Assembly: GCA_947504985.1 (NCBI GenBank)
Contig: CANNKH010000007.1
Span: 1-33,691 of the forward strand
Direction: 5' to 3'
Origin: Methylococcaceae bacterium
GTDB taxonomy: Bacteria; Pseudomonadota; Gammaproteobacteria; Methylococcales; Methylomonadaceae
Length of the DNA stretch: 33,691 bases
Shown: piece after piece, positions 8,607 to 21,720 of the stretch
Layout of the letters: each line of letters begins with the position of its first letter
Position numbering within the stretch: the stretch's first letter is position 1
Program-made: the position numbers and the translations under genes
Notes under the pieces: model-generated
What the model was told of the DNA's origin: nothing
Database searches by the model: none
Seen by the model: only the letters and a program-made list of their open reading frames with translations

Positions 8607-9041
8607 TTATTTAGGCAAATAATTCCGATCTAAAGTTTGTGCTAAAGTGAAAGGTGATTCATACGGAAAAGTCGAATGAGGTAAATTCGTTTCCTTTACC
8701 GCAAACAGAATTGCTTTCGTATAGGCTTTCTCAAACTTCTGCTCTAACTGATGTTTTAAACTCGGATTATCTTCAATTAAATCGACAACTTCCAAGCGTT
8801 GTTCTTCAATGGTTGCAAGCCAGCTGTTACACCTTCTTTGTGACTGGTACACCCACTTTAATAAATGCCCTAATAATAAAGTAAGGCGGTGAATCAATTC
8901 GCGTTTTTCACTCGCGCCCATACTTTCTAGCTCCTCTATCAAATAATGGACGTCTAAATGGGTCAACTCCCCAGATTTTAAAATACTTGCTTGTTGATTT
9001 GTCCAAGCGTAAAAATCTTGTTCGTGCAAAGAGGCTGTCAT
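8607..9041 (-). CDS. DUF29 family protein
   Basis: 144 aa; YDxDFYAWTNQQASILKSGELTHLDVHYLIEELESMGASEKREL...RLTLLLGHLLKW pattern typical of DUF29. Confidence 0.88.
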   Translation of the reverse strand: MTASLHEQDFYAWTNQQASILKSGELTHLDVHYLIEELESMGASEKRELIHRLTLLLGHLLKWVYQSQRRCNSWLATIEEQRLEVVDLIEDNPSLKHQLEQKFEKAYTKAILFAVKETNLPHSTFPYESPFTLAQTLDRNYLPK

Positions 9042-9104
9042 GATTTATTCCATGCGGTCTTTTTCTTGAAAACGAGGGTATAACAGAAAGCGGTATCAAC
9101 CCAA

Positions 9105-9860
9105 TTAAAGACTAACCGACATTGTTCTAATAGAATTTTTACTCAACACAGGCAATGCCGCTATGGCTTCGCGCAATTTAGTTTCCCAACTGCGTCTTAA
9201 TTGCGACATGTAATCATCATCGTCATCAAAACAATAATATTCGTTGAGGCTAAAGCTATTTTTACGGTAGATCAGCATTTCCACCGGGGCGCCAACACTG
9301 GCATTACTGCGAATGGTTGAATCCATTGAGACCAAGCAACAACGGGCGGCTTCGTCTATTGAGGTATCTGGTTTTAGAAAACGATCCAGTATGGGTTTGC
9401 CGTACTTGCTCTCGCCTATTTGTAAGAAGGGGGTATTTGCAGAACTGGTGATGCTATTGCCTTCGGAATAAACCATATACGCACCATGCGGTTCGTTGGC
9501 GATTTGTCCGGCGATAATAAAGGTTGCGGAAGGGTTGAAGGCAGATTGGCCTTGCGAGGTAAGGTGTTGTTTTTGCTTTTCTACGCTGATATGGCCTAAG
9601 TAATCGGCCGCTTCTGATAAACATTCGACCGTATTGATATTGATTTTGGCGTTTTTGATTTTATCGCGGTGCATTTGTTCTAATACCGCTTGAGTGGTCG
9701 CAAGGTTTCCGGCGCAAAGCAGGACAATTTTACGGTCGCTCTGGGTATCAAAAGGGTGCATTTTGCCGTGTGTGCTGACGTTATCAATACCGGCATTGGT
9801 CCTTGAATCAGATACCAAAATAAGTCCTTCGTTTATAGACGCTGCAATACAATAAGTCAT
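9105..9860 (-). CDS. Anbu-type proteasome-like peptidase (start moved from TTG 9866 to ATG 9860)
   Basis: MTYCIAASINEGLILVSDSRTNAGIDNVSTHGKMHPF: N-terminal Thr nucleophile after Met removal, Asp17 and Lys32 counted from that Thr, SDSRTNAG motif characteristic of Anbu; genomic context agrees. Confidence 0.93.
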   Translation of the reverse strand: MTYCIAASINEGLILVSDSRTNAGIDNVSTHGKMHPFDTQSDRKIVLLCAGNLATTQAVLEQMHRDKIKNAKININTVECLSEAADYLGHISVEKQKQHLTSQGQSAFNPSATFIIAGQIANEPHGAYMVYSEGNSITSSANTPFLQIGESKYGKPILDRFLKPDTSIDEAARCCLVSMDSTIRSNASVGAPVEMLIYRKNSFSLNEYYCFDDDDDYMSQLRRSWETKLREAIAALPVLSKNSIRTMSVSL

Positions 9861-9927
9861 AGTCAAGTGTGATCAAACGTTCAAAATGGCGGTCATTTTA
9901 AACTTTTTTATCCAGAAATGCGCTTAA

Positions 9928-10725
9928 TTATGTGACGGTATTATAAAGATTCTCAACGCTGACCTGCATACTCGTAAGCTGTACCCCTGAGCCAAACTGA
10001 TGAAATACGGAGACATCGGCAGCGTCACGCCCAAACGCAACAATAACTCTACCACCGGACAAATCATGCTGGGTTGGATCAAACGTGTACCAACGGTCGC
10101 CCACATACGCCTCAAACCAAGCGTGCATGTCCATAGGTTCCAGATTATTGAGATAGCCGACCACAATACGCGCTGGGATGCTGATACTGCGGCACAACGC
10201 AATACCCAAATGGGCAAGGTCACGGCACACCCCGTAGCCACGCTGATGTATTTCGGTCGCCGATAACGGTATATCGCTGGAACCGGGCAGATAATGTATT
10301 GAATATCTGATCCATTCGACAATTCTGTTCACTTGATCGTAGCCCGGCATGGCATCGCTGGTAATATCTCTAGCCAGCTCGCCAAAACGATCCGATTCGC
10401 AATAACGGCTAGGTAACAAAAAGACCAGAACCTCTTTGGGTAAATATTGTATTTCTACAAAATACGCGCCAGGCGCGGTATCACTACACTCAGCAACCAG
10501 CGCTTCCGCCGAGGTATTGATAAGTAACTTACCCCCTGGCGCAACCAGACGCTGACAGGAATTACCGTAGCTATCAGTACCTTCAATGACAGCTACATTA
10601 GGTTTTATCAGGTAAGTTTCACGCATAATCCATTGCTGAATGCCTCGGTAAGGACGCAGCATAAAAATCAATGCGGCGGCATCCTCTATCTGGAAACAAA
10701 GATTGCAACTGACTTTTAGTTTCAT
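9928..10725 (-). CDS. transglutaminase-like protein TG1, the type usually beside Anbu (start likely ATG 10725, not TTG 10752)
   Basis: MKLKVSCNLCFQIE...; triad motifs GYGVCRDLAHLGIALCRS, DMHAWFEAYV, YTFDPTQ. Confidence 0.9.
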   Translation of the reverse strand: MKLKVSCNLCFQIEDAAALIFMLRPYRGIQQWIMRETYLIKPNVAVIEGTDSYGNSCQRLVAPGGKLLINTSAEALVAECSDTAPGAYFVEIQYLPKEVLVFLLPSRYCESDRFGELARDITSDAMPGYDQVNRIVEWIRYSIHYLPGSSDIPLSATEIHQRGYGVCRDLAHLGIALCRSISIPARIVVGYLNNLEPMDMHAWFEAYVGDRWYTFDPTQHDLSGGRVIVAFGRDAADVSVFHQFGSGVQLTSMQVSVENLYNTVT

Positions 10726-10754
10726 CGTGTGTCTTGTTGGCAAGCTTACCAACG

Positions 10755-11450
10755 TTAAACCCCCAGTACGTCAAGCTGGCTGTAGGCATGATTCAGCCAC
10801 ATTTTTACCCGCTGCCGATCAAGTAAACCCAAGGCATTAAGATGTTCAAGATCACGATTTCTGGCCGCCCAAAAACTGGAGTTATTACCGTCAATTTTCG
10901 TCATGATTGGTGTATATAAACGTTTTAATACCATTACTTTGGCATTCATAGCCAGCGCCCGGTCTTTAACACCGGAAAATTCCAGCAGCGTAAAATCTTC
11001 TTCCCTGAGCTGGTTTTGCACCAGTACATAGTTCAACTTCGAACCATAATGGTCTAACAATTTACTCAGCAATTCCACGCTGTCTTTACCCGAATCCATC
11101 ACATTCCAGTAAGTCAGTGTAATACCTAATTCTTCCGCCACCTCCAGTACACCGGACTCATCAATCCACGTCGATAAGGGATAATGCGTTTGCGCCGCCA
11201 GATCAACTAAGATGCGTCGTTCCGGTTCGGCTGCTGCGGCGTCAATGATAGTATCGAGACTTTGATAATTATCAATCACCGTAGGCGAGGCATAATCAGC
11301 ATAAAACCGCAGTAATGCACCATGTGAGCGATCGGTATCGAAACCAATAAACGGTATATTTCCGTCTATCATGTATTGCGCCAAGACCCGTGCAAGCACT
11401 GACTTGCCTACACCGCCTTTTTCGCCGCCGATAAAATGTATCGTTGTCAT
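10755..11450 (-). CDS. MinD/ParA/CobQ-type P-loop ATPase
   Basis: 231 aa; deviant Walker A GGEKGGVGKS, FDTDRSHGALLRFY, RILVDLAAQ; no recognisable ParB partner nearby. Confidence 0.85.
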   Translation of the reverse strand: MTTIHFIGGEKGGVGKSVLARVLAQYMIDGNIPFIGFDTDRSHGALLRFYADYASPTVIDNYQSLDTIIDAAAAEPERRILVDLAAQTHYPLSTWIDESGVLEVAEELGITLTYWNVMDSGKDSVELLSKLLDHYGSKLNYVLVQNQLREEDFTLLEFSGVKDRALAMNAKVMVLKRLYTPIMTKIDGNNSSFWAARNRDLEHLNALGLLDRQRVKMWLNHAYSQLDVLGV

Positions 11451-11508
11451 AAAGCCCTCGTTATTAGTTCAAGAAATTAAAAATCACCACATTGTAGTGA
11501 AGGTATCG

Positions 11509-12471
11509 TTACTCCAATCGCAACACATCTACCGAAACCGATAAGGTATGCTGCCCTCCCCCAAAAGCAATGCCCTTGAGCGGGGTGACATCCGCATAAT
11601 CACGCCCCCATGCCAGCGTAATATGTTGATCGTAGGGTAATTTATTGTTGGTTGGATCAAAATCAAGCCAGCCGGTACCCGGTAAATAAACCGCAAACCA
11701 AGCATGGGAGGCATCTGCGCCGACTAATCGCTGTTGACCCGGTTCAGGTTGAGTCTCCACATACCCACTGATATAACGCGCCGCAAGCCCAAAGCTACGC
11801 AAGCAGCCGATAGCCAAATGGGCAAAATCCTGACAAACGCCACGTCGATGACTAAGCACATCAGATAATGGTGTTGCAATCGTCGTAAATGAAGGGTCGT
11901 AAGTAAAATCGATGTAAATTCGCTGCATTAAATCGCGAACAACGTCTATTAACAGGCGATTAGGTTGAAATGAAGCTTGCGCATAATCGGCAAGTGCCTG
12001 ACTACTGGTGACCATCGGCGAGTCTAAAACGTAGTACCGCGCATCCAGTATTTCCAGATTGAAATCCTGATGTTGGATCTGATCCTGACTACCTTGGTTT
12101 TGGGACTGATTTTGACTTTGAAATGGCAACTGTACCTGATCCGTCCCGTCTTGCAGCATATTACGCACTTGTTCCCAAGCCAATGGCTTAGATAAATCGC
12201 TGATAATGTCGTGCCTAGGAAATACGGTTATCTCACTGATTGCAGTGACCACCAATTGTTTATGCGATTGTTGGATGGCGAAATAGGTGACTCGGTTACC
12301 GAAAAAATCAATGAATTCGTAAAAATCAGTCGGCGTGGGTACAATCTCAAAATGGCTGGATTCACAACGTTGTCGCCAGAAATCACGAGGCAGTAATCTT
12401 GCCTCATTCTGACATAACCCCACGGCCTGACTATAATTGTAAACGGTAGTATGGGTGATGCGGTATTTCAT
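11509..12471 (-). CDS. transglutaminase-like protein TG2 with N-terminal bacterial transglutaminase-like beta domain
   Basis: 320 aa; RRGVCQDFAHLAIGCLRSFGLAARY, ASHAWFAVYLPGTGWLDFDPTN. Start overlaps the preceding gene's stop (ATGA). Confidence 0.92.
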   Translation of the reverse strand: MKYRITHTTVYNYSQAVGLCQNEARLLPRDFWRQRCESSHFEIVPTPTDFYEFIDFFGNRVTYFAIQQSHKQLVVTAISEITVFPRHDIISDLSKPLAWEQVRNMLQDGTDQVQLPFQSQNQSQNQGSQDQIQHQDFNLEILDARYYVLDSPMVTSSQALADYAQASFQPNRLLIDVVRDLMQRIYIDFTYDPSFTTIATPLSDVLSHRRGVCQDFAHLAIGCLRSFGLAARYISGYVETQPEPGQQRLVGADASHAWFAVYLPGTGWLDFDPTNNKLPYDQHITLAWGRDYADVTPLKGIAFGGGQHTLSVSVDVLRLE

Positions 12472-15056
12472 AACTCATCTTCCGTAGGCTTGTTCACCAT
12501 CATCAATTGCGACGTTTGCGAATGACTAAAATACGACCGCGCAATAACTTCTGCAACACGCCATAACAGTTCAGTGGTATTAGCCAGTAAACGATCAAGT
12601 TCGGCATAAATCCCTGAATCTTCATCATCTTTAAGTAAATCAACCACGTTGCTTAAGCGCAAATCCGTATAAGCTTTCAGGATTAATCGCTCTTCCTCGC
12701 TCAACTGACCTTTACCACGCTCTCGAGGTAATGCGTCGATATGTGCTGATAGTTGCAATAACTGGTAGGCTACTGAGCGCGGATGTGTTTCATCAAGCAA
12801 CAAAAGCTCCAGCAACATCGGCAACTGGATTACTGAACGGTAACGCCGCTGATAAATCGTCAAGCTATCCGTTGAAAACAAGACGGCTTCAAGTATCTGA
12901 TATTGAACAGCCGGATCATGTCGAGATACCACGGTGGCACGTAGCAAAGCGATCAATACCAAGGCGCGTTCTACTCGACGACCACTGTCCAGCATCAACC
13001 AACCCGCCTCCCGAGTCATGCTATCACTGGTTAAACCCGCAAACGTGACAATGCCAGCAATTAATTCATCCAAACCACTTTGCAAGGTTTCTACGGTCAG
13101 CTCATTATTCATCGCGCGTTGCTGCCAACGATGCTGAATATTATCAACACTGCGCCAGGTATCCTGTGACCACAAATCGCGAATACTGAAAGCGGATTGC
13201 ACAAAAATTTGAATATTGGCCGCCAGCGAGCCAACACGTTTGCTGTCTCTGACCAACGAAAAAAGCTCGGCCTCAGGCGCTGCCAATAACTTTTCACCGC
13301 CCCTCACAAAGCCAGGATACGTCGCCGTCACTTGAGTCAGCGTACACAATAATACGGTAAGACATTCGGTGTCTTTGGCATCGTTAAACTCTAAGGTATC
13401 ACGATATTTCAATACCACCGTTCGCAATAACCGCGCCGCCCCGTCAGTGCGCTCCAGATAGCGGCCAACCCAAAACAAATGATCAGCGGCACGACTCGTC
13501 AAGGGTTCGGTCACCGCCGCGATCAGCGAATGACGCCCCCCCTTAATCAACCCAGGTTGCGGTATTACTGTCGCCGGTTTTTCAGGCTCAGACGCTAGTA
13601 CCCAGGTATCTTTACTAATCCCCCCCGCCTGATTAGAAACAATAGAATCACCCTTCTCACGCGCAACCCGGGTCAGTCCGCCTGGCATCACCTGATAATC
13701 CTCGCCACTAGCAACCACAAAATTACGCAACACGGCATTGCGTGGTTCAATATGATGGTCGATAAACGCCGGTACGGTAGAAAAGCTGACACATTCTTGA
13801 CCAACAAATAAATAAGGCTTGGCACGAATAGCATCGCGTAAGGTATCTCGTGCTTTACTGCTTAAAGCACTACCAAAGATAACCTCATTACCGTGCTTGC
13901 GGTTAATCGGCTTGATAGTCAGTTTGTCAAGATTATGTAAGACAAAATCACGCTCACGGCGCTGCCCACACCACCAAGTAGCTACTGACGGCAACCGTAG
14001 CTCTTGATTTAAAAAATGTCGGCATAACCGAGGTAAAAAGGCCAGCAAGCCAGGATTTTCAAGTACGCTACTCCCTAACGGATTGGCAATGGCCACATTA
14101 CCGCGCCGAACGGCTTCCAACAGTCCTGCGACACCCAGCCGCGAATCACTACGCAATGCCAGCGGATCACAAAAAGAATCATCGACACGGCGTAAAATAA
14201 CATCAACCGGTTGCAATCCTTCCAATGACTTGAGCCAAACATAACCATCTCGCACCGTCAGGTCATCACCCTGAACTAGCGTGTAACCCAGATAAGAGGC
14301 CAAATAAGCATGTTCAAAATAGGTTTCATTAAAAGGGCCGGGAGTCAGTACCACGATGCGCGGATTGTCTTTATTATGCAGCGCAATAGAAGCAAGCCCT
14401 GTGCTTAACCCTTTGAAAAAACCCGAGAGCCGTTGTACTTGAGTTTCCCGAAAAATATCCGGAAGAATACGCGTCATCACCGTGCGATTTTCCAGTGCAT
14501 AACCCGACCCAGATGGCGCTTGGGTACGGTCATCCAATACCCAAAGTCGTCCTTTTGGACCACGCACTAAATTTGCCGAATAAATCGTCAATTGCCTGTT
14601 CTGATTCGGCAAAGTGCCGACACAAACCGGCAAAAAACCATGATGCGCAAAAACCAGCTCGGCCGGCAACAAGCCTTTTTTTAACAGGGTTTGCTTGCCA
14701 TAGATATCTTTTAGGATCAGATCCAACAACTCGGCACGCTGTTTAAGACCAGCTTCAATTCCTGTCCATTCTTCGCCGCTAATCAGCAATGGCACCGGAT
14801 CAAGACGCCACGGACGTGTCAGCTTGTGTTCATCACCATAGACATTGTAAGTGACGCCATTTTCACGCAATAACCGTTGGGCTTCACGACGGCGACGATC
14901 AATTTCAACACTCCCCAAAGCTTCCATCGCCTTAATAAAACGATCCCAGTAAGGCAATACCTTGTGTTCTGTCGCAAGCATTTCATCGTAGACGCCTAGC
15001 CGGGTCTCGTAAAATTGCACACCAATATCGTTAGCTGCTGTCTCTGTATTACGCAC
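12468..15056 (-). CDS. fused circularly permuted ATP-grasp / alpha-E domain protein
   Basis: 862 aa; N-terminal half with YNVYGDEHKLTRPWRLDPVPLLI, LTPGPFNETYFEHAYLASYLG, MPGGLTRVAREKG, SKDTWVL; C-terminal alpha-E (SRAADHLFWVGRYLERTDGAARLLR). GTG start. Confidence 0.92.
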   Translation of the reverse strand: MRNTETAANDIGVQFYETRLGVYDEMLATEHKVLPYWDRFIKAMEALGSVEIDRRRREAQRLLRENGVTYNVYGDEHKLTRPWRLDPVPLLISGEEWTGIEAGLKQRAELLDLILKDIYGKQTLLKKGLLPAELVFAHHGFLPVCVGTLPNQNRQLTIYSANLVRGPKGRLWVLDDRTQAPSGSGYALENRTVMTRILPDIFRETQVQRLSGFFKGLSTGLASIALHNKDNPRIVVLTPGPFNETYFEHAYLASYLGYTLVQGDDLTVRDGYVWLKSLEGLQPVDVILRRVDDSFCDPLALRSDSRLGVAGLLEAVRRGNVAIANPLGSSVLENPGLLAFLPRLCRHFLNQELRLPSVATWWCGQRRERDFVLHNLDKLTIKPINRKHGNEVIFGSALSSKARDTLRDAIRAKPYLFVGQECVSFSTVPAFIDHHIEPRNAVLRNFVVASGEDYQVMPGGLTRVAREKGDSIVSNQAGGISKDTWVLASEPEKPATVIPQPGLIKGGRHSLIAAVTEPLTSRAADHLFWVGRYLERTDGAARLLRTVVLKYRDTLEFNDAKDTECLTVLLCTLTQVTATYPGFVRGGEKLLAAPEAELFSLVRDSKRVGSLAANIQIFVQSAFSIRDLWSQDTWRSVDNIQHRWQQRAMNNELTVETLQSGLDELIAGIVTFAGLTSDSMTREAGWLMLDSGRRVERALVLIALLRATVVSRHDPAVQYQILEAVLFSTDSLTIYQRRYRSVIQLPMLLELLLLDETHPRSVAYQLLQLSAHIDALPRERGKGQLSEEERLILKAYTDLRLSNVVDLLKDDEDSGIYAELDRLLANTTELLWRVAEVIARSYFSHSQTSQLMMVNKPTEDEL

Positions 15057-15118
15057 GCACTAAGCCTTTGTATGTTGTCATATCTTTATACAGCGTTTTC
15101 AGGTCAAGTTAGGATGCC

Positions 15119-15151
15119 ATGACTGCCAGTCCTCAAAGGACTGGCAGTCAT
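15119..15151. repeat. 33-bp near-perfect palindrome, copy 2 (inverted relative to copy 1)
   Basis: ATGACTGCCAGTCCT-CAA-AGGACTGGCAGTCAT; exact reverse complement of 3932-3964. The flank at 15152-15182 resembles, on the opposite strand, the flank before copy 1. Confidence 0.85.
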
Positions 15152-15216
15152 CCTGTTGCCGAGTGTGTCGTACTTGTTCCTAACCGACATTGAAACCGCT
15201 GTAAGTTGAAACAAGA

Positions 15217-18200
15217 CTACCGGCTCCGATGCCGCAAATCCAATGTAAAGGGATACTCGTCACTCAACTCCTCGACGGGAGGTGCCATCGGTCTTGGCGC
15301 TGCCTCACTCACCGTAAAGGTATTCAATACCGGTTTATCTGACGGTTCAGCGGGCAGCGCGGTCAACGGTGGGCGAATAATCGCGCCAGGGGTATGCCCA
15401 TAATCCCAAAAGCGTGTGATGCGCCGCGCTTCCGCTTCGAAGCTATTAACCGGGAACGCATCATAACTGCGTCCGCCAGGATGAGCGACATGATAAGTAC
15501 AACCGCCAATCGCATGACCATTCCAGGTATCAATCACGTCGAATATCAACGGCACATGTGGGCTAATAGTCGGGTGCAACGCTGACGGTGGTTGCCATGC
15601 CCGATAACGCAAACCGGCGACATATTCCCCTTTACGTCCGGTGCTGCGCAATGGCAAGCGCCGACCGTTACAAGTCAAGACATAACGTCCTTCGGTAAAA
15701 CCCGTGACCTGAACTTGCAGACGTTCCACCGATGAATCAACATAACGTGCCGTGCCTGTGCTGCTGACTTCTTCACCCAACACATGCCAAGGTTCGATAG
15801 CAAAACGTAACTCCAATTCCATCCCATCAATCATCGTCGTACCGTAACGCGGAAAACGGAATTCAAAAAACGGCGCTAACCATTCCAATTCAAACCCATA
15901 ACCGGCACGTTGCAAATCTTTAACAACGTGCTTCATATCTTCGCGCACATAATGCGGCAACATGAAACGGTCATGCAGTTCCGTGCCCCAGCGTACCAGA
16001 TCATGTTTATACGGTTCGCGCCAGAACCACGCGATTAGCGAACGCAGCAAAACCATTTGCACCAACGACATGCGGGCATGAGGCGGCATTTCAAACGCAC
16101 GCAACTCCAAAATGCCCAAACGCCCCGTCGCGCTATCAGGCGAATACAGCTTGTCGATACAAAACTCGCTACGGTGGGTATTGCCGGTGATGTCAGTCAA
16201 TAAATGCCGCAATAACCGATCGACCAGCCACGGCGCGGGCACTTCGCCTTCAGGCATTTGCTGGAACGCAATTTCCAGCTCATACAGTTTTTCATCGCGA
16301 CCTTCATCAACGCGCGGCGCTTGGCTAGTCGGACCGATAAACATGCCGGAAAATAAATAGGATAACCCCGGATGATGCTGCCAATACGTTACCAAACTGC
16401 GCAATAAATCAGGGCGACGCAATAACGGACTATCGGTCGGCGTTTGCGCACCGACAGTGATATGGTTGCCGCCGCCAGTCCCCGTATGGCGACCGTCCAG
16501 CATGAATTTTTCGGTACCTAATCTGACCTGAAAGGCCTGCTCATACAAAACAGTGGTTTTTTCAACCAGTTCCTGCCAACTTTTGGACGGATGGATATTG
16601 ACTTCAATAACCCCCGGATCAGGCGTCACCATCAAGCGTTCGATACGGTAATCACGCGGCGGCTCATAGCCTTCAATAACCACAGGCAAGGCCAGTTTTT
16701 CTGCCGTAGCCTCAACAGCAGCGATCAAATCCAAATAATGTTCCAACAGCGACAACGGCGGCATGAAAATATGCAGACGCCCATCTCGTGGCTCCACACA
16801 AACCGCCGTATGCGGAATTTCTACAATAACGGTGTCGTCATCACCCGATGCCTGCGCAGTAATTTCAGGATGCGCGTTGCGTTTTTCTTCAAGGTAACTA
16901 TAGCGACGAGCAACTTCGCCGTAATAATCACCCAGCTCGGGCAAATCAGTGAATAGGCTCTGCGGCTCTTGGGTATCGCGTTTGTCAGGCGCAACCCAGG
17001 GCAAGCTGTCCAACGGCATCCGCATACCCATTGGTGAATTCCCCGGAATCAAAAATAGCTGTCCCCGACGAAAATCCCACGGCCCACTCTGCCAATTTTG
17101 TTCAGACCAGTTCCATTTAATGGGCAGCGCAAAACCTATCGGTTGACCTAAATCGGCATCCAGTAATTTGGCGATCGTTTTACGTTCAATCGAATCTTTC
17201 AGATTGACTTTTAACGGATTAATATTCACCGGTAAATTGCCTTCCTGCCACAAATAATAAAAGTTATCTTCGTAGGCAGTGGCGATATGCCGTTGCTTGG
17301 CACCCAAATGTTGAGTCAAGTGCTGAACAAACTGCTGGGCATGTTTTACAGTATGTCCATAGTCCTTGTTAATATCAGCCAACAACTCAACATTACGCCA
17401 AGCCGATACCCCATCTTTGCGCCAAAATATGCCATATTGCCAACGCGGCAAAGGTTCACCGGGATACCATTTACCTTGTCCATAATGCAGCATCGCGCCT
17501 TTAGCGAAGACATCACGCAAGCGTTTGGTCAATTCTTGTGCGCGTTCGCGCTTGTGCGCACCATCAGCGTGCGTATTCCACTCATCACCTTCCATATCAT
17601 CGACAGAAACAAAAGTCGGCTCGCCTCCCATCGTCAACTTGACATCATCTTCGATAAATTGCCTGTCAACCTGCAGACCCAACGCATCAATGTTGTACCA
17701 TTGCTCGTCGGTATACGGTTTGGTGACGCGTGGATCTTCATGTAGCCGCTCCACAGTGTTGCTGAACTCAAACTCCACTTCGCATTTATCGGTACCGCCG
17801 GTTACCGGTGCTGCACTAGCAGGGTTCGGTGTACAAGCGAGCGGAATATGGCCTTCACCGGCGAGCAAACCAGAGGTGGGATCAAGCCCTATCCAGCCCG
17901 CGCCAGGAATATACACTTCCGTCCACGCATGTAAATCAGTGAAATCCTGCTCAGGACCAGAAGGCCCATCCAGCGATTTAATATCAGCAGTGAGTTGCAC
18001 CAGATAACCTGACACAAAACGCGCTGCAAGCCCCATATGACGTAGGATTAGCACCAACAACCACGCGGAATCACGACAAGAACCGCTACGTTTCGTCAAA
18101 GTTTCTTCGCAACTTTGTATGCCTACTTCCATGCGAATGTTGTAGCTAATGGCCTGAAACAACTCACGGTTTACATCGACCAGAAAGTCATTGATAGTGC

Positions 18201-18615
18201 GTTTGGTCAGATCAAAATCATTCACCCACTGTGTTAACAACTCGCCGCTTTCGGTAATTTCAAGATAGGGTTGTAATTCCTTAGCCAATTGTGATTCGTA
18301 GTTAAAAGGGTATTGTTCGGCATAAGCTTCGACAAAGAAATCAAACGGATTGATAACCGTCATATCCGCAATAACTTCAACTTCAACGCTGAGTTTGCGG
18401 CATTTTTCAGGGAAAACAACGCGTGCGAGAAGATTACCAAACGGATCTTGCTGCCAATTGATGAAATGTTCTTCAGGCTCAATGCGTAAGCTGTAGCCCT
18501 TAATAGGTGTGCGGCTATGCACTGCCGGACGCAAGCGGAACACATGCGGCGACAGGGACACCGCCCTATCAAAGCTGTAGATGGTTTTGTGACGAAGAGC
18601 CACTTTAATTGTCAT
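15217..18615 (-). CDS. large transglutaminase-like protein TG3 with C-terminal DUF2126
   Basis: 1132 aa; N-terminal transglutaminase (RSGSCRDSAWLLVLILRHMGLAARFVSGYL, DLHAWTEVYIPGAGWIGLDPTSGL) and DUF2126 region (LTMGGEPTFVSVDD, DGRHTGTGGGNHITVG). Confidence 0.94.
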   Translation of the reverse strand: MTIKVALRHKTIYSFDRAVSLSPHVFRLRPAVHSRTPIKGYSLRIEPEEHFINWQQDPFGNLLARVVFPEKCRKLSVEVEVIADMTVINPFDFFVEAYAEQYPFNYESQLAKELQPYLEITESGELLTQWVNDFDLTKRTINDFLVDVNRELFQAISYNIRMEVGIQSCEETLTKRSGSCRDSAWLLVLILRHMGLAARFVSGYLVQLTADIKSLDGPSGPEQDFTDLHAWTEVYIPGAGWIGLDPTSGLLAGEGHIPLACTPNPASAAPVTGGTDKCEVEFEFSNTVERLHEDPRVTKPYTDEQWYNIDALGLQVDRQFIEDDVKLTMGGEPTFVSVDDMEGDEWNTHADGAHKRERAQELTKRLRDVFAKGAMLHYGQGKWYPGEPLPRWQYGIFWRKDGVSAWRNVELLADINKDYGHTVKHAQQFVQHLTQHLGAKQRHIATAYEDNFYYLWQEGNLPVNINPLKVNLKDSIERKTIAKLLDADLGQPIGFALPIKWNWSEQNWQSGPWDFRRGQLFLIPGNSPMGMRMPLDSLPWVAPDKRDTQEPQSLFTDLPELGDYYGEVARRYSYLEEKRNAHPEITAQASGDDDTVIVEIPHTAVCVEPRDGRLHIFMPPLSLLEHYLDLIAAVEATAEKLALPVVIEGYEPPRDYRIERLMVTPDPGVIEVNIHPSKSWQELVEKTTVLYEQAFQVRLGTEKFMLDGRHTGTGGGNHITVGAQTPTDSPLLRRPDLLRSLVTYWQHHPGLSYLFSGMFIGPTSQAPRVDEGRDEKLYELEIAFQQMPEGEVPAPWLVDRLLRHLLTDITGNTHRSEFCIDKLYSPDSATGRLGILELRAFEMPPHARMSLVQMVLLRSLIAWFWREPYKHDLVRWGTELHDRFMLPHYVREDMKHVVKDLQRAGYGFELEWLAPFFEFRFPRYGTTMIDGMELELRFAIEPWHVLGEEVSSTGTARYVDSSVERLQVQVTGFTEGRYVLTCNGRRLPLRSTGRKGEYVAGLRYRAWQPPSALHPTISPHVPLIFDVIDTWNGHAIGGCTYHVAHPGGRSYDAFPVNSFEAEARRITRFWDYGHTPGAIIRPPLTALPAEPSDKPVLNTFTVSEAAPRPMAPPVEELSDEYPFTLDLRHRSR

Positions 18616-18972
18616 AGTCGTTTTTCCTTACCTGTTTGAGATGAAATTAAAGGCCGTTAGCCATCTTAAGCTTCGCGAACAATCAATTTAGGAATAGATA
18701 CAGTGTGTGTCAGCTTTATTATGAAGCAAGCACTGTACCAAACATTTCGTTTTTATATTTGTCTTAGACCAACATTGCAATGTGATGTTTATATAAGGTG
18801 GGCTTGTTTGAATCATACTAAAGACAGTCCCTCAGATAGCCAAATGCACCATATCCGTCACCACAACCACTTTATTGGTTTACATTCGGTGCAATTAAAC
18901 CTGAAATAACCGCATACACAAACTCAAAGACAAAAAACAAATTAAATATCAAAGCGTTAAAATAATTAAAAA

Positions 18973-19001
18973 TTGGCACTATAAATGCTTTATTCTATTA
19001 C
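18973..19001 (+). promoter_or_regulatory. candidate sigma70-type promoter
   Basis: TTGGCA (18973-18978), 17-nt spacer, TATTAC (18996-19001), in the divergent intergenic region. Confidence 0.4.
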
Positions 19002-19007
19002 ACGTAA

Positions 19008-19097
19008 TCATCGTCGTGTCCACCTCCTCGTGTGATAATTGCTTTTATTAAAGCGCCAGCGCGTTACTTATTACCAAGGTAACGCGCTTTTTTTTGC
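19008..19097 (+). ncRNA. candidate ~90-nt small RNA or transcribed leader ending at an intrinsic terminator
   Basis: Lies between a candidate promoter and a strong terminator; contains single-strand-like CCACCTCCTCG (anti-Shine-Dalgarno-like). Confidence 0.35.
19058..19097 (+). terminator. Rho-independent terminator
   Basis: AGCGCGTTAC-ttattaccaag-GTAACGCGCT followed by a long T tract. Confidence 0.85.
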
Positions 19098-19145
19098 CTG
19101 CTATTCTGTGGGGTCAATACAGGCAAAAGCCCATCACGCCCTCAA

Positions 19146-19328
19146 ATGAGGCATACTAACGCCAAAATGGGTCGCTCTAAAAAGCGCTTGAGTTTAATTA
19201 TTTACAACAGCCTGTCCATGTCAGTTTTTATTGCGGTATTTTTTTGGACATTAGCAATAACACTAACTGATGGCACATTTTATGCTGAATTATTTTTAAA
19301 CTCATTCCAAATTATAATAAAGCCATGA
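19146..19328 (+). CDS. possible small membrane protein overlapping the start of the CP-ATP-grasp gene
   Basis: 60 aa with one hydrophobic segment (SMSVFIAVFFWTLAITLTDGTFYAEL); stop overlaps the next ATG (ATGA). Start codon uncertain. Confidence 0.35.
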   Translation: MRHTNAKMGRSKKRLSLIIYNSLSMSVFIAVFFWTLAITLTDGTFYAELFLNSFQIIIKP

Positions 19329-20776
19329 AATCAATCTGGGAAAACTATAAAACCGATATCGCCTATGATGAGCTGATGTTTTCGGAGTTTCAACCGCGCC
19401 CTATCAGTCACAGCTTATGCCAATATTTAAATTCGCTTAAAAAAAATGATATTGATAAACGCAAAATGGCTGCCGAACTGGCGATCATGGAAATGGGCAT
19501 CACCTTCACCGTTTATAGTGATGAAGGCAATATAGATAGAGCGTGGCCTTTCGATATTATTCCGCGAATTATCGATGCCAAAGAGTGGCGCATCATTGAA
19601 AAAGGCTTAAAGCAACGCTTAACGGCCTTAAACTGCTTCATCAGCGATGTTTACGACCAACAGCATTTCATCAAGGAAGGTAAAATCCCTAGCGAAACTA
19701 TCAATACCTCCAAAAATTTTCGCAAGGAATGTATTGGCATGAAGCCTAGCCATAATGTCTGGGCAAACATTTGCGGCACTGATTTGGTGCGTGACAAAGA
19801 CGGCATTATGTATGTGCTGGAAGACAATCTACGCGTCCCTTCGGGGGTATCCTACATGCTAGAAAATCGTGTCATTACCAAACGTGTCTTCCCTGAATTG
19901 TTGCAGGACATCAATATTTTGCCCATAGACGATTATCCGACTCAACTCCAGGATATGCTGTCATCTATTGCGCCATTACCCAATAACAAGCCACGCATTG
20001 TTGTCCTGACACCGGGTATTTACAACTCAGCTTATTTTGAACATGCTTACTTGGCACAACAAATCGGCGCACAACTGGTGGAAGGCAGTGATTTGGTCGT
20101 TAAACAGGATGACTGTGTCTATATGCGAACTATCGAAGGCCTGGAAAAAGTCGATGTTATCTACCGGCGCATAGACGATGATTTCCTTGATCCCGAGGTG
20201 TTCCGAAAAGACTCTAGCTTGGGCGTACCCGGCCTGATGCGAGCATGGAAAGCCGGCAATGTCGCCTTAGCTAATGCGCCCGGTGCCGGCGTTGCTGACG
20301 ACAAGGTGGTGTATGCTTATGTGCCGGAAATGATCCGTTATTATCTTAATGAAGAGCCAATACTACCCAACGTGCCGACTTATCTATGCAGTAATAAAGA
20401 AGATCTGGATTATGTATTGGAACATCTAGCGGAACTGGTGGTAAAGCCCGCAAATGAGTCGGGTGGCTATGGCATGTTGGTAGGGCCGCATTCCACCGCC
20501 AAGGCTGTTGAAGCCTTCCGTAAGGTCATTCAGGCCGATCCACGCAATTATATTGGTCAGCCTACATTATCTATTTCCACCGCACCTACCTTGTGCAAAG
20601 GCAAGCTCGAACCCCGACATATCGACCTGCGACCTTTTATTCTGCAAGGCGAAAATACCTTTGTCACCGCTGGCGGTTTAACTCGCGTTGCCCTCAAAAA
20701 AGGCTCATTAGTCGTTAACTCGTCGCAAGGCGGCGGCAGTAAAGATACCTGGATTATTAATAGGGAGGAAAAATGA
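19325..20776 (+). CDS. stand-alone circularly permuted ATP-grasp protein
   Basis: 483 aa; FTVYSDEGNIDRAWPFDIIPRII, LTPGIYNSAYFEHAYLAQQIG, VVKPANESGGYGMLVGP, AGGLTRVALKKGSLVVNSSQGGGSKDTW. Confidence 0.94.
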   Translation: MKSIWENYKTDIAYDELMFSEFQPRPISHSLCQYLNSLKKNDIDKRKMAAELAIMEMGITFTVYSDEGNIDRAWPFDIIPRIIDAKEWRIIEKGLKQRLTALNCFISDVYDQQHFIKEGKIPSETINTSKNFRKECIGMKPSHNVWANICGTDLVRDKDGIMYVLEDNLRVPSGVSYMLENRVITKRVFPELLQDINILPIDDYPTQLQDMLSSIAPLPNNKPRIVVLTPGIYNSAYFEHAYLAQQIGAQLVEGSDLVVKQDDCVYMRTIEGLEKVDVIYRRIDDDFLDPEVFRKDSSLGVPGLMRAWKAGNVALANAPGAGVADDKVVYAYVPEMIRYYLNEEPILPNVPTYLCSNKEDLDYVLEHLAELVVKPANESGGYGMLVGPHSTAKAVEAFRKVIQADPRNYIGQPTLSISTAPTLCKGKLEPRHIDLRPFILQGENTFVTAGGLTRVALKKGSLVVNSSQGGGSKDTWIINREEK

Positions 20777-21720
20777 TGCTATCTCGTTCCGCAGAACGCC
20801 TGTATTGGCTGGCGCGTTATATAGAGCGTACTGAAAATACCGCCAAGCTGGTCAGTGTCCACATGAACCTGTTGATGGATTTACCTAAAGGTGTGGAAAT
20901 GGGCTGGCAACAACTCATCCGCATCAACGGTGCCGAAGCAGTCAATAAATTTTATGAAGGCAACAAATTAGCCAATGAACGTAATATCACCCGCTTTCTG
21001 TTAACCGATGCGAGTTATCCCGGCTCTTTGTTTTCCTCACTGAGTGCCGCACGAGAAAACATCCGTACCACGCGGGAATTATTGCCTGATGAAGCCTGGC
21101 AGCAAGTCAATGAAATGTACCTGTTTGCTAAAAATAATCTGGAAACCATTGCAAATCGTCGTAGCCGAGTGCTGTTCCTTAACGAAATTCTCAAAGGTTG
21201 CCAACGCTTTACCGGCTTGTTGTCCGGTTATATGAGCCACCATCATCCCTACCGCTTTATCCGTCTGGGCAGAAATCTTGAGCGTGCCGATATGACCAGC
21301 CGCATCCTAGATTTGGCATCTTTGTTATTATCAGAGTCACGTAGCGACGAATTGCGTCAATACGAAACCATTTTATGGATGAACATTTTGACCGCGCTGA
21401 ATGCGTTGTTAATGTATCGCCAACATATGCGCAGCCGAATTGAAGGCGACGATGTGCTTAATTTTCTATTGCTGGATAACAACTTGCCGCGCTCAATCAG
21501 TTGTTGTCTATTAGAAATATCCGATTGCATTAACGAACTACCAAACCATGATTCGTTACCTGAAAAACTACTAGAGCTGGAAGCTTATGTACAAGCTATC
21601 GACACCCATCAAACCACGCAACCGCAATTGCGTGGCATTCTTGATGATCTACAAAACAAGCTAGGGGAGCTGCATAAACAAATTGCTGATAACTGGTTTT
21701 TACGAATGGCCGTCGAGTAA
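20773..21720 (+). CDS. stand-alone alpha-E domain protein
   Basis: 315 aa; MLSRSAERLYWLARYIERTENTAKLV; overlaps the upstream stop (ATGA). Confidence 0.94.
   Translation: MMLSRSAERLYWLARYIERTENTAKLVSVHMNLLMDLPKGVEMGWQQLIRINGAEAVNKFYEGNKLANERNITRFLLTDASYPGSLFSSLSAARENIRTTRELLPDEAWQQVNEMYLFAKNNLETIANRRSRVLFLNEILKGCQRFTGLLSGYMSHHHPYRFIRLGRNLERADMTSRILDLASLLLSESRSDELRQYETILWMNILTALNALLMYRQHMRSRIEGDDVLNFLLLDNNLPRSISCCLLEISDCINELPNHDSLPEKLLELEAYVQAIDTHQTTQPQLRGILDDLQNKLGELHKQIADNWFLRMAVE

Follow-up and report, generated by a model that had tools for sequence, protein, structure and literature searches.

Two divergent gene units with sigma-54 promoter matches combine Anbu, transglutaminase-like proteins, putative ligases and a ParA-like ATPase in a member of the Methylomonadaceae

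Introduction

The Anbu operon, reportedly described by Valas and Bourne and by Iyer et al., joins genes for an ATP-grasp, an alpha-E protein, a transglutaminase and Anbu. To our knowledge, the role played by Anbu and the ligases that accompany it has been a standing question since about 2008. In published tests, Anbu showed neither peptidase activity nor stable contact with its operon partners, and the ATP-grasp of the Yersinia Anbu operon freed phosphate from ATP (PMC6376114). Anbu is also upregulated in nitrogen-limited Pseudomonas putida (PMC5666114). A second architecture, the Rv2566 type, was placed in the carboxylate-amine-ligase superfamily, which contains DUF2126 and gave rise to the Pup ligase (PMC2588565). 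In addition, the Burkholderia cenocepacia cluster I35_5080-83 (DUF404/407, DUF403, transglutaminase and large transglutaminase) is sigma-54/NtrC-dependent, with changes of 6 to 9.4-fold (PMC5491218).

Here, a locus containing members of all these families was analyzed in a window of 33,691 nucleotides (the whole stretch of DNA examined) from a Methylovulum-type methanotroph. In our reading, to which we give a probability of about 0.5, the locus would encode a two-unit system that is induced in nitrogen limitation and acts on a peptide or protein, both making and cleaving amide bonds.

Results

Gene content and conservation of the locus

An earlier note on this DNA had named Anbu, transglutaminase-like (TG), circularly permuted (CP) ATP-grasp and alpha-E proteins, and the profile search placed every one of these families with high confidence (Pfam). 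The reverse-strand unit runs from TG-DUF2126, a Transglut_core domain joined to a putative amidoligase (15217..18615), through FUS, a fusion of CP_ATPgrasp_2 and Alpha-E (12468..15056), TG2, which carries Bact_transglu_N and Transglut_core domains (11509..12471), a ParA/MinD-type (TraL-like) ATPase gene that the earlier operon listing had missed (10755..11450), and TG1 (9928..10752; Transglut_core, 2e-23, with a match to 3isr) to Anbu (Pfam Proteasome), whose open reading frame (9105-9866) has an ATG start at 9860 and was therefore set to 9105..9860. The forward-strand unit is composed of a stand-alone ATP-grasp (CP_ATPgrasp_2; 19325..20776), predicted to be an active ligase, and a stand-alone Alpha-E protein (20773..21720), both assigned by Pfam. 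FUS and TG2 overlap by 4 bp, as do the ATP-grasp and alpha-E genes, which supports two operons and agrees with the two divergent units proposed before.

The system had also been drawn from position 8607 onwards, but the gene at 8607..9041 on the reverse strand encodes a DUF29 protein (Pfam) whose place beside the locus is shared by the nearest relative alone, so it was rejected as a component and is probably a bystander; it is absent from the other loci examined. Downstream of alpha-E, cca and yajQ are housekeeping neighbours, and GH15/glucokinase genes found beside the locus in some genomes were taken as local neighbours.

The six-gene unit TG-DUF2126/FUS/TG2/ParA/TG1/Anbu is conserved across the family Methylomonadaceae, and in many close relatives the split ATP-grasp and alpha-E pair is sited elsewhere in the genome. 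The phylum survey showed that other families of Pseudomonadota have their own merged clusters of ATP-grasp and alpha-E, TG-DUF2126, Anbu, FUS and TG2, so the joining of both modules is recurrent; the merged layout described earlier is present here, but the neighbourhood comparison ruled out that it is special to this locus. The trio TG-DUF2126/FUS/TG2 was found in identical order at four loci of other Pseudomonadota, and the classical four-gene Anbu order at two.

Ligase candidates and catalytic residues

In a search of solved structures, the stand-alone ATP-grasp matched 3n6x with an E value of 3e-160. Its predicted metal triad was placed by the spacing common to ATP-grasp enzymes, because the PDB profile search for GspS homologues on which the metal site could be mapped matched only 3N6X; we take the spacing (13 and 2) to equal that of D-Ala-D-Ala ligase. 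The triad D153/E166/N168 and the Gly-rich loop GGYG were invariant in 51/51 homologues. In the 72 homologues of FUS, the triad Asp was kept in 21 only, Glu and Asn were kept in none (Arg replaced Asn in 68), and the Gly-rich loop was not conserved, while the alpha-E part retained its ER motif in 71/71. An equal ligase role for both ATP-grasps, as in the earlier statement that ATP-grasp ligates, is untenable because FUS lacks Glu and Asn in 72/72; judged by these residues, the fused ATP-grasp is probably not a ligase. That statement had also left DUF2126, a putative amidoligase, uncounted. The DUF2126 domain here scored 1362 bits over the whole profile length and follows an N-terminal TG domain (Pfam), and the stand-alone ATP-grasp and DUF2126 are likely to be the ligases of the system.

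The AF2 model of the stand-alone alpha-E protein was confident (pLDDT 89), and a Foldseek search of the PDB gave no match below an E value of 0.4, so the attempt to read its function from the fold was dropped. For Anbu, the sequence search of the PDB gave the solved Anbu chains 5loy, 5lox and 5nyw with E values of 1e-46 to 1e-66, and T1/D17/K32 were intact in 73/73 homologues, with Thr1 exposed after Met removal. The Cys-His-Asp triad of the transglutaminase superfamily was kept in TG1 (58/58 homologues), TG2 (81/81) and TG-DUF2126 (69/69).

Sigma-54 promoter matches and a candidate small RNA

Three sigma-54 promoter matches lie in the 709-bp divergent gap, for the TG-DUF2126 operon (TGGTACAGTGCTTGCT, 18725..18740, reverse strand), a candidate small RNA (TGGCACTATAAATGCT, 18974..18989, forward strand) and the ATP-grasp/alpha-E unit (TGGCACATTTTATGCT, 19271..19286, forward strand), which upholds the shared promoter region postulated in the earlier note. 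The GG-N10-GC match near the first gene of both units is kept in relatives, and 14 related sequences have it 51-56 bp upstream of the ATP-grasp gene. Among Methylomonadaceae, matches were found before the ATP-grasp gene in 16/22 sequences and before TG-DUF2126 in 21/41, compared with 20/374 control genes, and the corresponding counts before FUS, TG1 and Anbu were 0, 0 and 1/52; in other taxa, 10/29 ATP-grasp genes had a match compared with 18/580 controls. The enrichment over control genes was about 10-fold, which agrees with the sigma-54/NtrC control published for the Burkholderia homologue (PMC5491218), and a sigma-70 promoter scan stayed at chance level. The sequence TGCACC-N5-GGTGCA (up to 2 mismatches) was found before 9/52 ATP-grasp and 7/77 TG-DUF2126 genes compared with 3% of controls, a weak enrichment of NtrC boxes, and in the window NtrC half sites occur only separated. 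Sigma-54 also drives genes unrelated to nitrogen. The promoter pattern suggests that both units are switched on by nitrogen shortage.

The same pattern would fit a small nitrogen-rich peptide or amide store, made or remobilised under nitrogen shortage and only matured or recycled by Anbu and the TGs, as would the place of the B. cenocepacia cluster in the NtrC regulon alongside urease and transport genes (PMC5491218) and a metagenomic tie to urea-metabolism domains (PMC3597751); however, the conserved unit contains no transporter or dedicated carrier gene, and we regard such a store as possible but doubtful.

The forward-strand segment 18990..19095 is a candidate for a sigma-54-driven small RNA, composed of stem-loop 1, ACCUCCUCGUG, stem-loop 2 and an intrinsic terminator (19058-19095). 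Its fold z-score was -4.2, compensatory changes were found in 7/20 pairs, covariance model matches were obtained in 20/41 relatives, and the search against Rfam gave no match. Candidatus Methylobacter favarea has a strong match next to the operon, and Methylobacter psychrophilus Z-0021, which carries the operon, gave none. The candidate would constitute an RNA family so far undescribed in methanotrophs, whose activity curbs the escape of methane from lakes and wetlands.

A ParA/MinD-type ATPase in the operon

The ParA-like protein matched NCBIfam TraL (NF010461) with an E value of 3e-12 and 46.5 bits, below the cut-off of 360, and all 25 aligned members matched the same family; a TraL conjugation role was rejected since the score is far under the cut-off and no transfer genes were seen nearby. 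Its AF2 model (pLDDT 86) resembles MipZ, ParA and ParF (MipZ, TM 0.65), the Walker motif GGEKGGVGKS is invariant, and K11, K16, S17, D38, D40 and D83 are present in 92/92 sequences, in line with a deviant Walker A motif, a Walker B Asp and the SIMIBI fold. The ParA-like gene was found in 2/200 genomes of the Pseudomonadota sample and TG-DUF2126 in 65/200, and because it is missing from most TG-DUF2126 genomes, the ATPase is considered accessory.

That the modules are mere neighbours sharing sigma-54 regulation, with the ParA-like gene as a hitch-hiker serving some other function, for instance DNA or plasmid partition, would agree with the separation of ParA-TG1-Anbu from TG2126-FUS-TG2 in several genomes (L061, L062 and L093) and with the unlinked ParA-like gene in Verrucomicrobia and Burkholderiales, and it is mostly unlinked outside the family. 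We consider this unlikely, as the gene holds its operon place in most Methylomonadaceae and adjoins TG-DUF2126 in three Hydrogenophilales loci. A gene for a ParB partner was not noticed alongside it. The two genes also co-occur in trans, TG-DUF2126 being present in 23/24 genomes with the ParA-like gene compared with 65/200 in the sample, and in 4/4 Verrucomicrobiae with intact close ParA-like homologues compared with 28/113, the counted genomes being related rather than independent events. We know of no earlier report linking a positioning-type ATPase to an Anbu/ligase system, and the link offers the system a new partner that is open to direct testing.

Discussion

In the amide-bond system that we favour, both divergent units would be switched on by NtrC or another sigma-54 activator. 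Two ligases would then be active, the DUF2126 domain and the stand-alone CP-ATP-grasp working with its alpha-E partner, and would place amino acids or amines onto a carboxylate, with FUS as a non-catalytic relative in a scaffolding or regulatory role. The amide product may be cleaved or transferred by the three transglutaminase-like proteins and trimmed by Anbu, and the ParA-like ATPase may assemble or position the machinery. A bolder version, which we rate as a long shot, is that the ParA/MinD ATPase organizes a nitrogen-starvation amide-ligase/Anbu machine in space as a new cargo class, with the dead ATP-grasp as scaffold and the sigma-54-driven small RNA, co-expressed from the intergenic region that the two units share, silencing mRNAs via its CCUCC motif. 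The promoter data point to nitrogen limitation as the condition for study, and the residue data make the stand-alone ATP-grasp the first choice for assay.

Pup-like tagging, in which a peptide or amino acid would be coupled to proteins by the ligases and taken off again by the TGs, with Anbu degrading the tagged proteins, would account for ligases, TG fold and proteasome relative occurring together and for the shared ancestry of DUF2126 and Pup ligase (PMC2588565), but it is improbable given that the conserved unit has no AAA+ unfoldase and no small conserved tag gene that was noticed (the systematic search covered ORFs of at least 70 aa), that no Pup-like ORF was found near the Rv2566 type (PMC2588565) and that Anbu was inactive as a peptidase in published assays (PMC6376114).

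Compared with the Pup-proteasome of actinobacteria, the locus shares a ligase of the carboxylate-amine ligase superfamily and a proteasome relative, with Anbu in place of the 20S core. The ParA/MinD positioning ATPases (McdA, ParC and MipZ) and TraL/StbB/VirC1 share the deviant Walker A motif, signature lysine and SIMIBI fold with the ParA-like protein, whose similarity to TraL is weak and for which any cargo would be new. The B. cenocepacia cluster resembles the locus in its CP-ATP-grasp, alpha-E, TG and large TG genes and is under sigma-54/NtrC there (PMC5491218), whereas its listed genes include neither Anbu nor ParA nor a fused ATP-grasp, and nitrogen control here is a promoter prediction. 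All four families of the Anbu operon (structures 5LOX, 5NYW and 5NYJ) are present with intact catalytic residues, but Anbu and TG1 sit in the DUF2126 operon with the ParA-like gene while ATP-grasp and alpha-E form the opposite unit, and the classical order of ATP-grasp, alpha-E, TG and Anbu in one operon is not kept. With the Rv2566-type TG-DUF2126/FUS/TG system, the locus has the gene trio in common, in the order found in other Pseudomonadota, and the operon here is extended by ParA, TG1 and Anbu.

Organization of the Locus and Its Relatives

The locus in the window is best read as a system that forms and breaks amide bonds under nitrogen limitation. The organism is a Methylovulum-type methanotroph, and its nearest named relatives were Methylovulum MAGs. 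The minus-strand unit, running downward from 18615, encodes a transglutaminase-like (TG) protein with DUF2126 (TG-DUF2126), a fused CP-ATP-grasp/alpha-E protein (FUS), TG2, a ParA/MinD-like ATPase (10755-11450, minus strand), TG1 and the proteasome-like Ntn hydrolase Anbu, which starts at 9860 with Met-Thr, and the plus-strand unit from 19325 encodes a stand-alone CP-ATP-grasp (ATPg) and then alpha-E. There is a 4-bp overlap both between FUS and TG2 and between ATPg and alpha-E. Every family named in the earlier note was confirmed by Pfam; the ParA-like ATPase was absent from that note. A DUF29 gene (8607-9041) adjoins the locus in the nearest relative only.

TG-DUF2126 was present in 22 of the 25 Methylomonadaceae genomes, and the ParA-like gene in the same 22. 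The order TG-DUF2126-FUS-TG2-ParA-TG1-Anbu was kept in most of the family, and the departures from it are informative: ParA-TG1-Anbu was separate from the rest at four loci (L061, L062, L081, L093), and at two (L041, L078) TG1 was missing between ParA and Anbu, both of which were retained. The split ATPg/alpha-E pair varied in position: in the window, L033 and L035 it adjoins the operon in divergent orientation, in many Methylobacter-like genomes (L084, L086, L088) it is convergent and follows Anbu downstream, and in others it occupies another chromosomal site.

TG-DUF2126 was found in 65 and Anbu in 68 of 200 sampled Pseudomonadota genomes. Merged clusters of other families (L211-L215, L218, L220-L222) have Anbu adjoining TG-DUF2126 and frequently include FUS, TG2, ATPg and alpha-E, and classical ATPg-alpha-E-TG-Anbu operons were also observed (L234, L235, L240). 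In the Anbu tree, the operon copies were placed beside a copy from the same family that is linked to ATPg (L052), apart from the other merged clusters. Merging of the two modules looks recurrent, which argues for their cooperation and removes the uniqueness that had been claimed for the window layout, since the neighbourhood survey found merged clusters in other Pseudomonadota families.

Several further variants were observed. L051 (G014) was disrupted by stops and frameshifts, with TG-DUF2126, FUS and Anbu in pieces; in two genomes (L164, L168) TG-DUF2126 lay within very long frames (~1955 aa) with one TGA. A glucokinase and/or GH15/phosphorylase-kinase-like gene adjoins the locus in several Methylobacter-like genomes (L041 11140-15343, L044, L078, L113, L079, L097), and L057, L058, L059 and L060 have a second, distant Anbu (~41%) in an operon with N-formylglutamate amidohydrolase (PF05013) and another transglutaminase-like gene.

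Catalytic Residues

In 51 stand-alone ATP-grasps, D153, E166, N168 and the GGYG loop were invariant. Among 72 fused proteins, 49 have N and 21 have D at the first triad position, none has E at the second, and none has N and 68 have R at the third; the equivalent of the Gly-rich loop was not conserved. Since the D-13-E-2-N spacing is that of the magnesium triad of D-Ala-D-Ala ligase, the fused domain, with its triad replaced, is predicted from sequence to be a non-ligase. The alpha-E motif of FUS was kept in 71/71. With ATPg residues intact, FUS residues lost and DUF2126 placed in the carboxylate-amine ligase superfamily (PMC2588565), the ligases of the system are likely ATPg and DUF2126. The TG catalytic triads and Anbu catalytic residues were invariant among homologues. 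The alpha-E model was confident (pLDDT 89), with no PDB match found to it.

ParA-like ATPase

The deviant Walker A motif was invariant, and the model gave a confident SIMIBI fold with MipZ, ParF/ParA and Get3 as neighbours; similarity to TraL was weak. Close homologues (61-67%) were found in Verrucomicrobia, Burkholderiales, Hydrogenophilales and Nevskiales; most are unlinked, but in Hydrogenophilales (L126, L132, L140) the gene directly follows TG-DUF2126. By raw counts uncorrected for relatedness of the genomes, TG-DUF2126 was present in 23/24 genomes with a close homologue versus 65/200 in the phylum sample, and within Verrucomicrobiae in 4/4 genomes with an intact one versus 28/113. The ATPase itself occurred in only 2/200 of the phylum sample, and is an accessory depending on TG-DUF2126. 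A stop interrupts a fifth Verrucomicrobiae homologue (G279:C150:5218-5712), and its genome lacks TG-DUF2126; the two were possibly lost together.

Sigma-54 Promoter Matches and a Small-RNA Candidate

Three sigma-54 matches fall in the 709-bp divergent region, at 18740-18725 (minus) for TG-DUF2126, at 18974 (plus) for a small-RNA candidate, and at 19271 (plus) for ATPg, 54 bp before it. In Methylomonadaceae, matches were found upstream of ATPg in 16/22 (14 at 51-56 bp) and of TG-DUF2126 in 21/41, versus 20/374 control genes, and of FUS in 0/49, TG1 in 0/52 and Anbu in 1/52, and in other taxa upstream of ATPg in 10/29 versus 18/580 controls and of TG-DUF2126 in 3/32 (not significant); related sequences were thinned by their last 60 bases only, so that p-values for these counts overstate independence. 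NtrC-box enrichment was weak. TGCACC and GGTGCA half sites at 18845-18893, conserved in L033 and L035, may be NtrC half boxes.

The candidate sigma-54-driven small RNA (~105 nt; 18974-19095 with its promoter match, plus strand) has a CCUCC motif, two stem-loops, ACCUCCUCGUG and an intrinsic terminator, with a fold z of -4.2 and compensatory change in 7/20 pairs; the Rfam search gave no family match. A covariance model that excluded the promoter matched in 20/41 relatives, all within the 22 family genomes having the locus, and in 0/16 order-level relatives. GG-N10-GC stood directly upstream of 22/24 matches; 11 of the 24 trained the model and were chosen partly by this promoter, so that the independent promoter evidence is the other 13 (11 with GG-N10-GC, one a poor match in G012). 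Paralogues occur in some genomes. Since the small RNA directly adjoins TG-DUF2126 or ATPg in 12/20 genomes and lies elsewhere in the remaining ones, it is a neighbour sharing regulation rather than a proven component of the system. A shorter variant in L044 (17216-17309, plus strand), with CCUCCUCGUG and a terminator, has a sigma-54 match on one side and ATPg on the other, and could therefore be a leader there.

Proposed Mechanism

The sequences themselves show the protein families, their residues, the arrangement of the genes, the co-occurrence and the promoter matches, and the flow, substrate, product, interactions and expression of the system are inferred. In this reading, stand-alone ATP-grasp and DUF2126 would be the two active ligases, FUS a scaffold of dead ATP-grasp/alpha-E, the three TG-fold proteins amidases or transferases, and Anbu a trimming hydrolase. 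The ParA-like ATPase would be an organiser, a positioning idea that follows from the ParA/MinD family positioning protein cargos (PMC10241942). In published assays, neither peptidase activity of Anbu nor a stable complex was found (PMC6376114). Published results support the predicted regulation: Anbu was up in nitrogen-limited P. putida, as cited in PMC5666114, and in Burkholderia cenocepacia the genes for ATPg, alpha-E, TG and the large TG depend on sigma-54/NtrC (PMC5491218).
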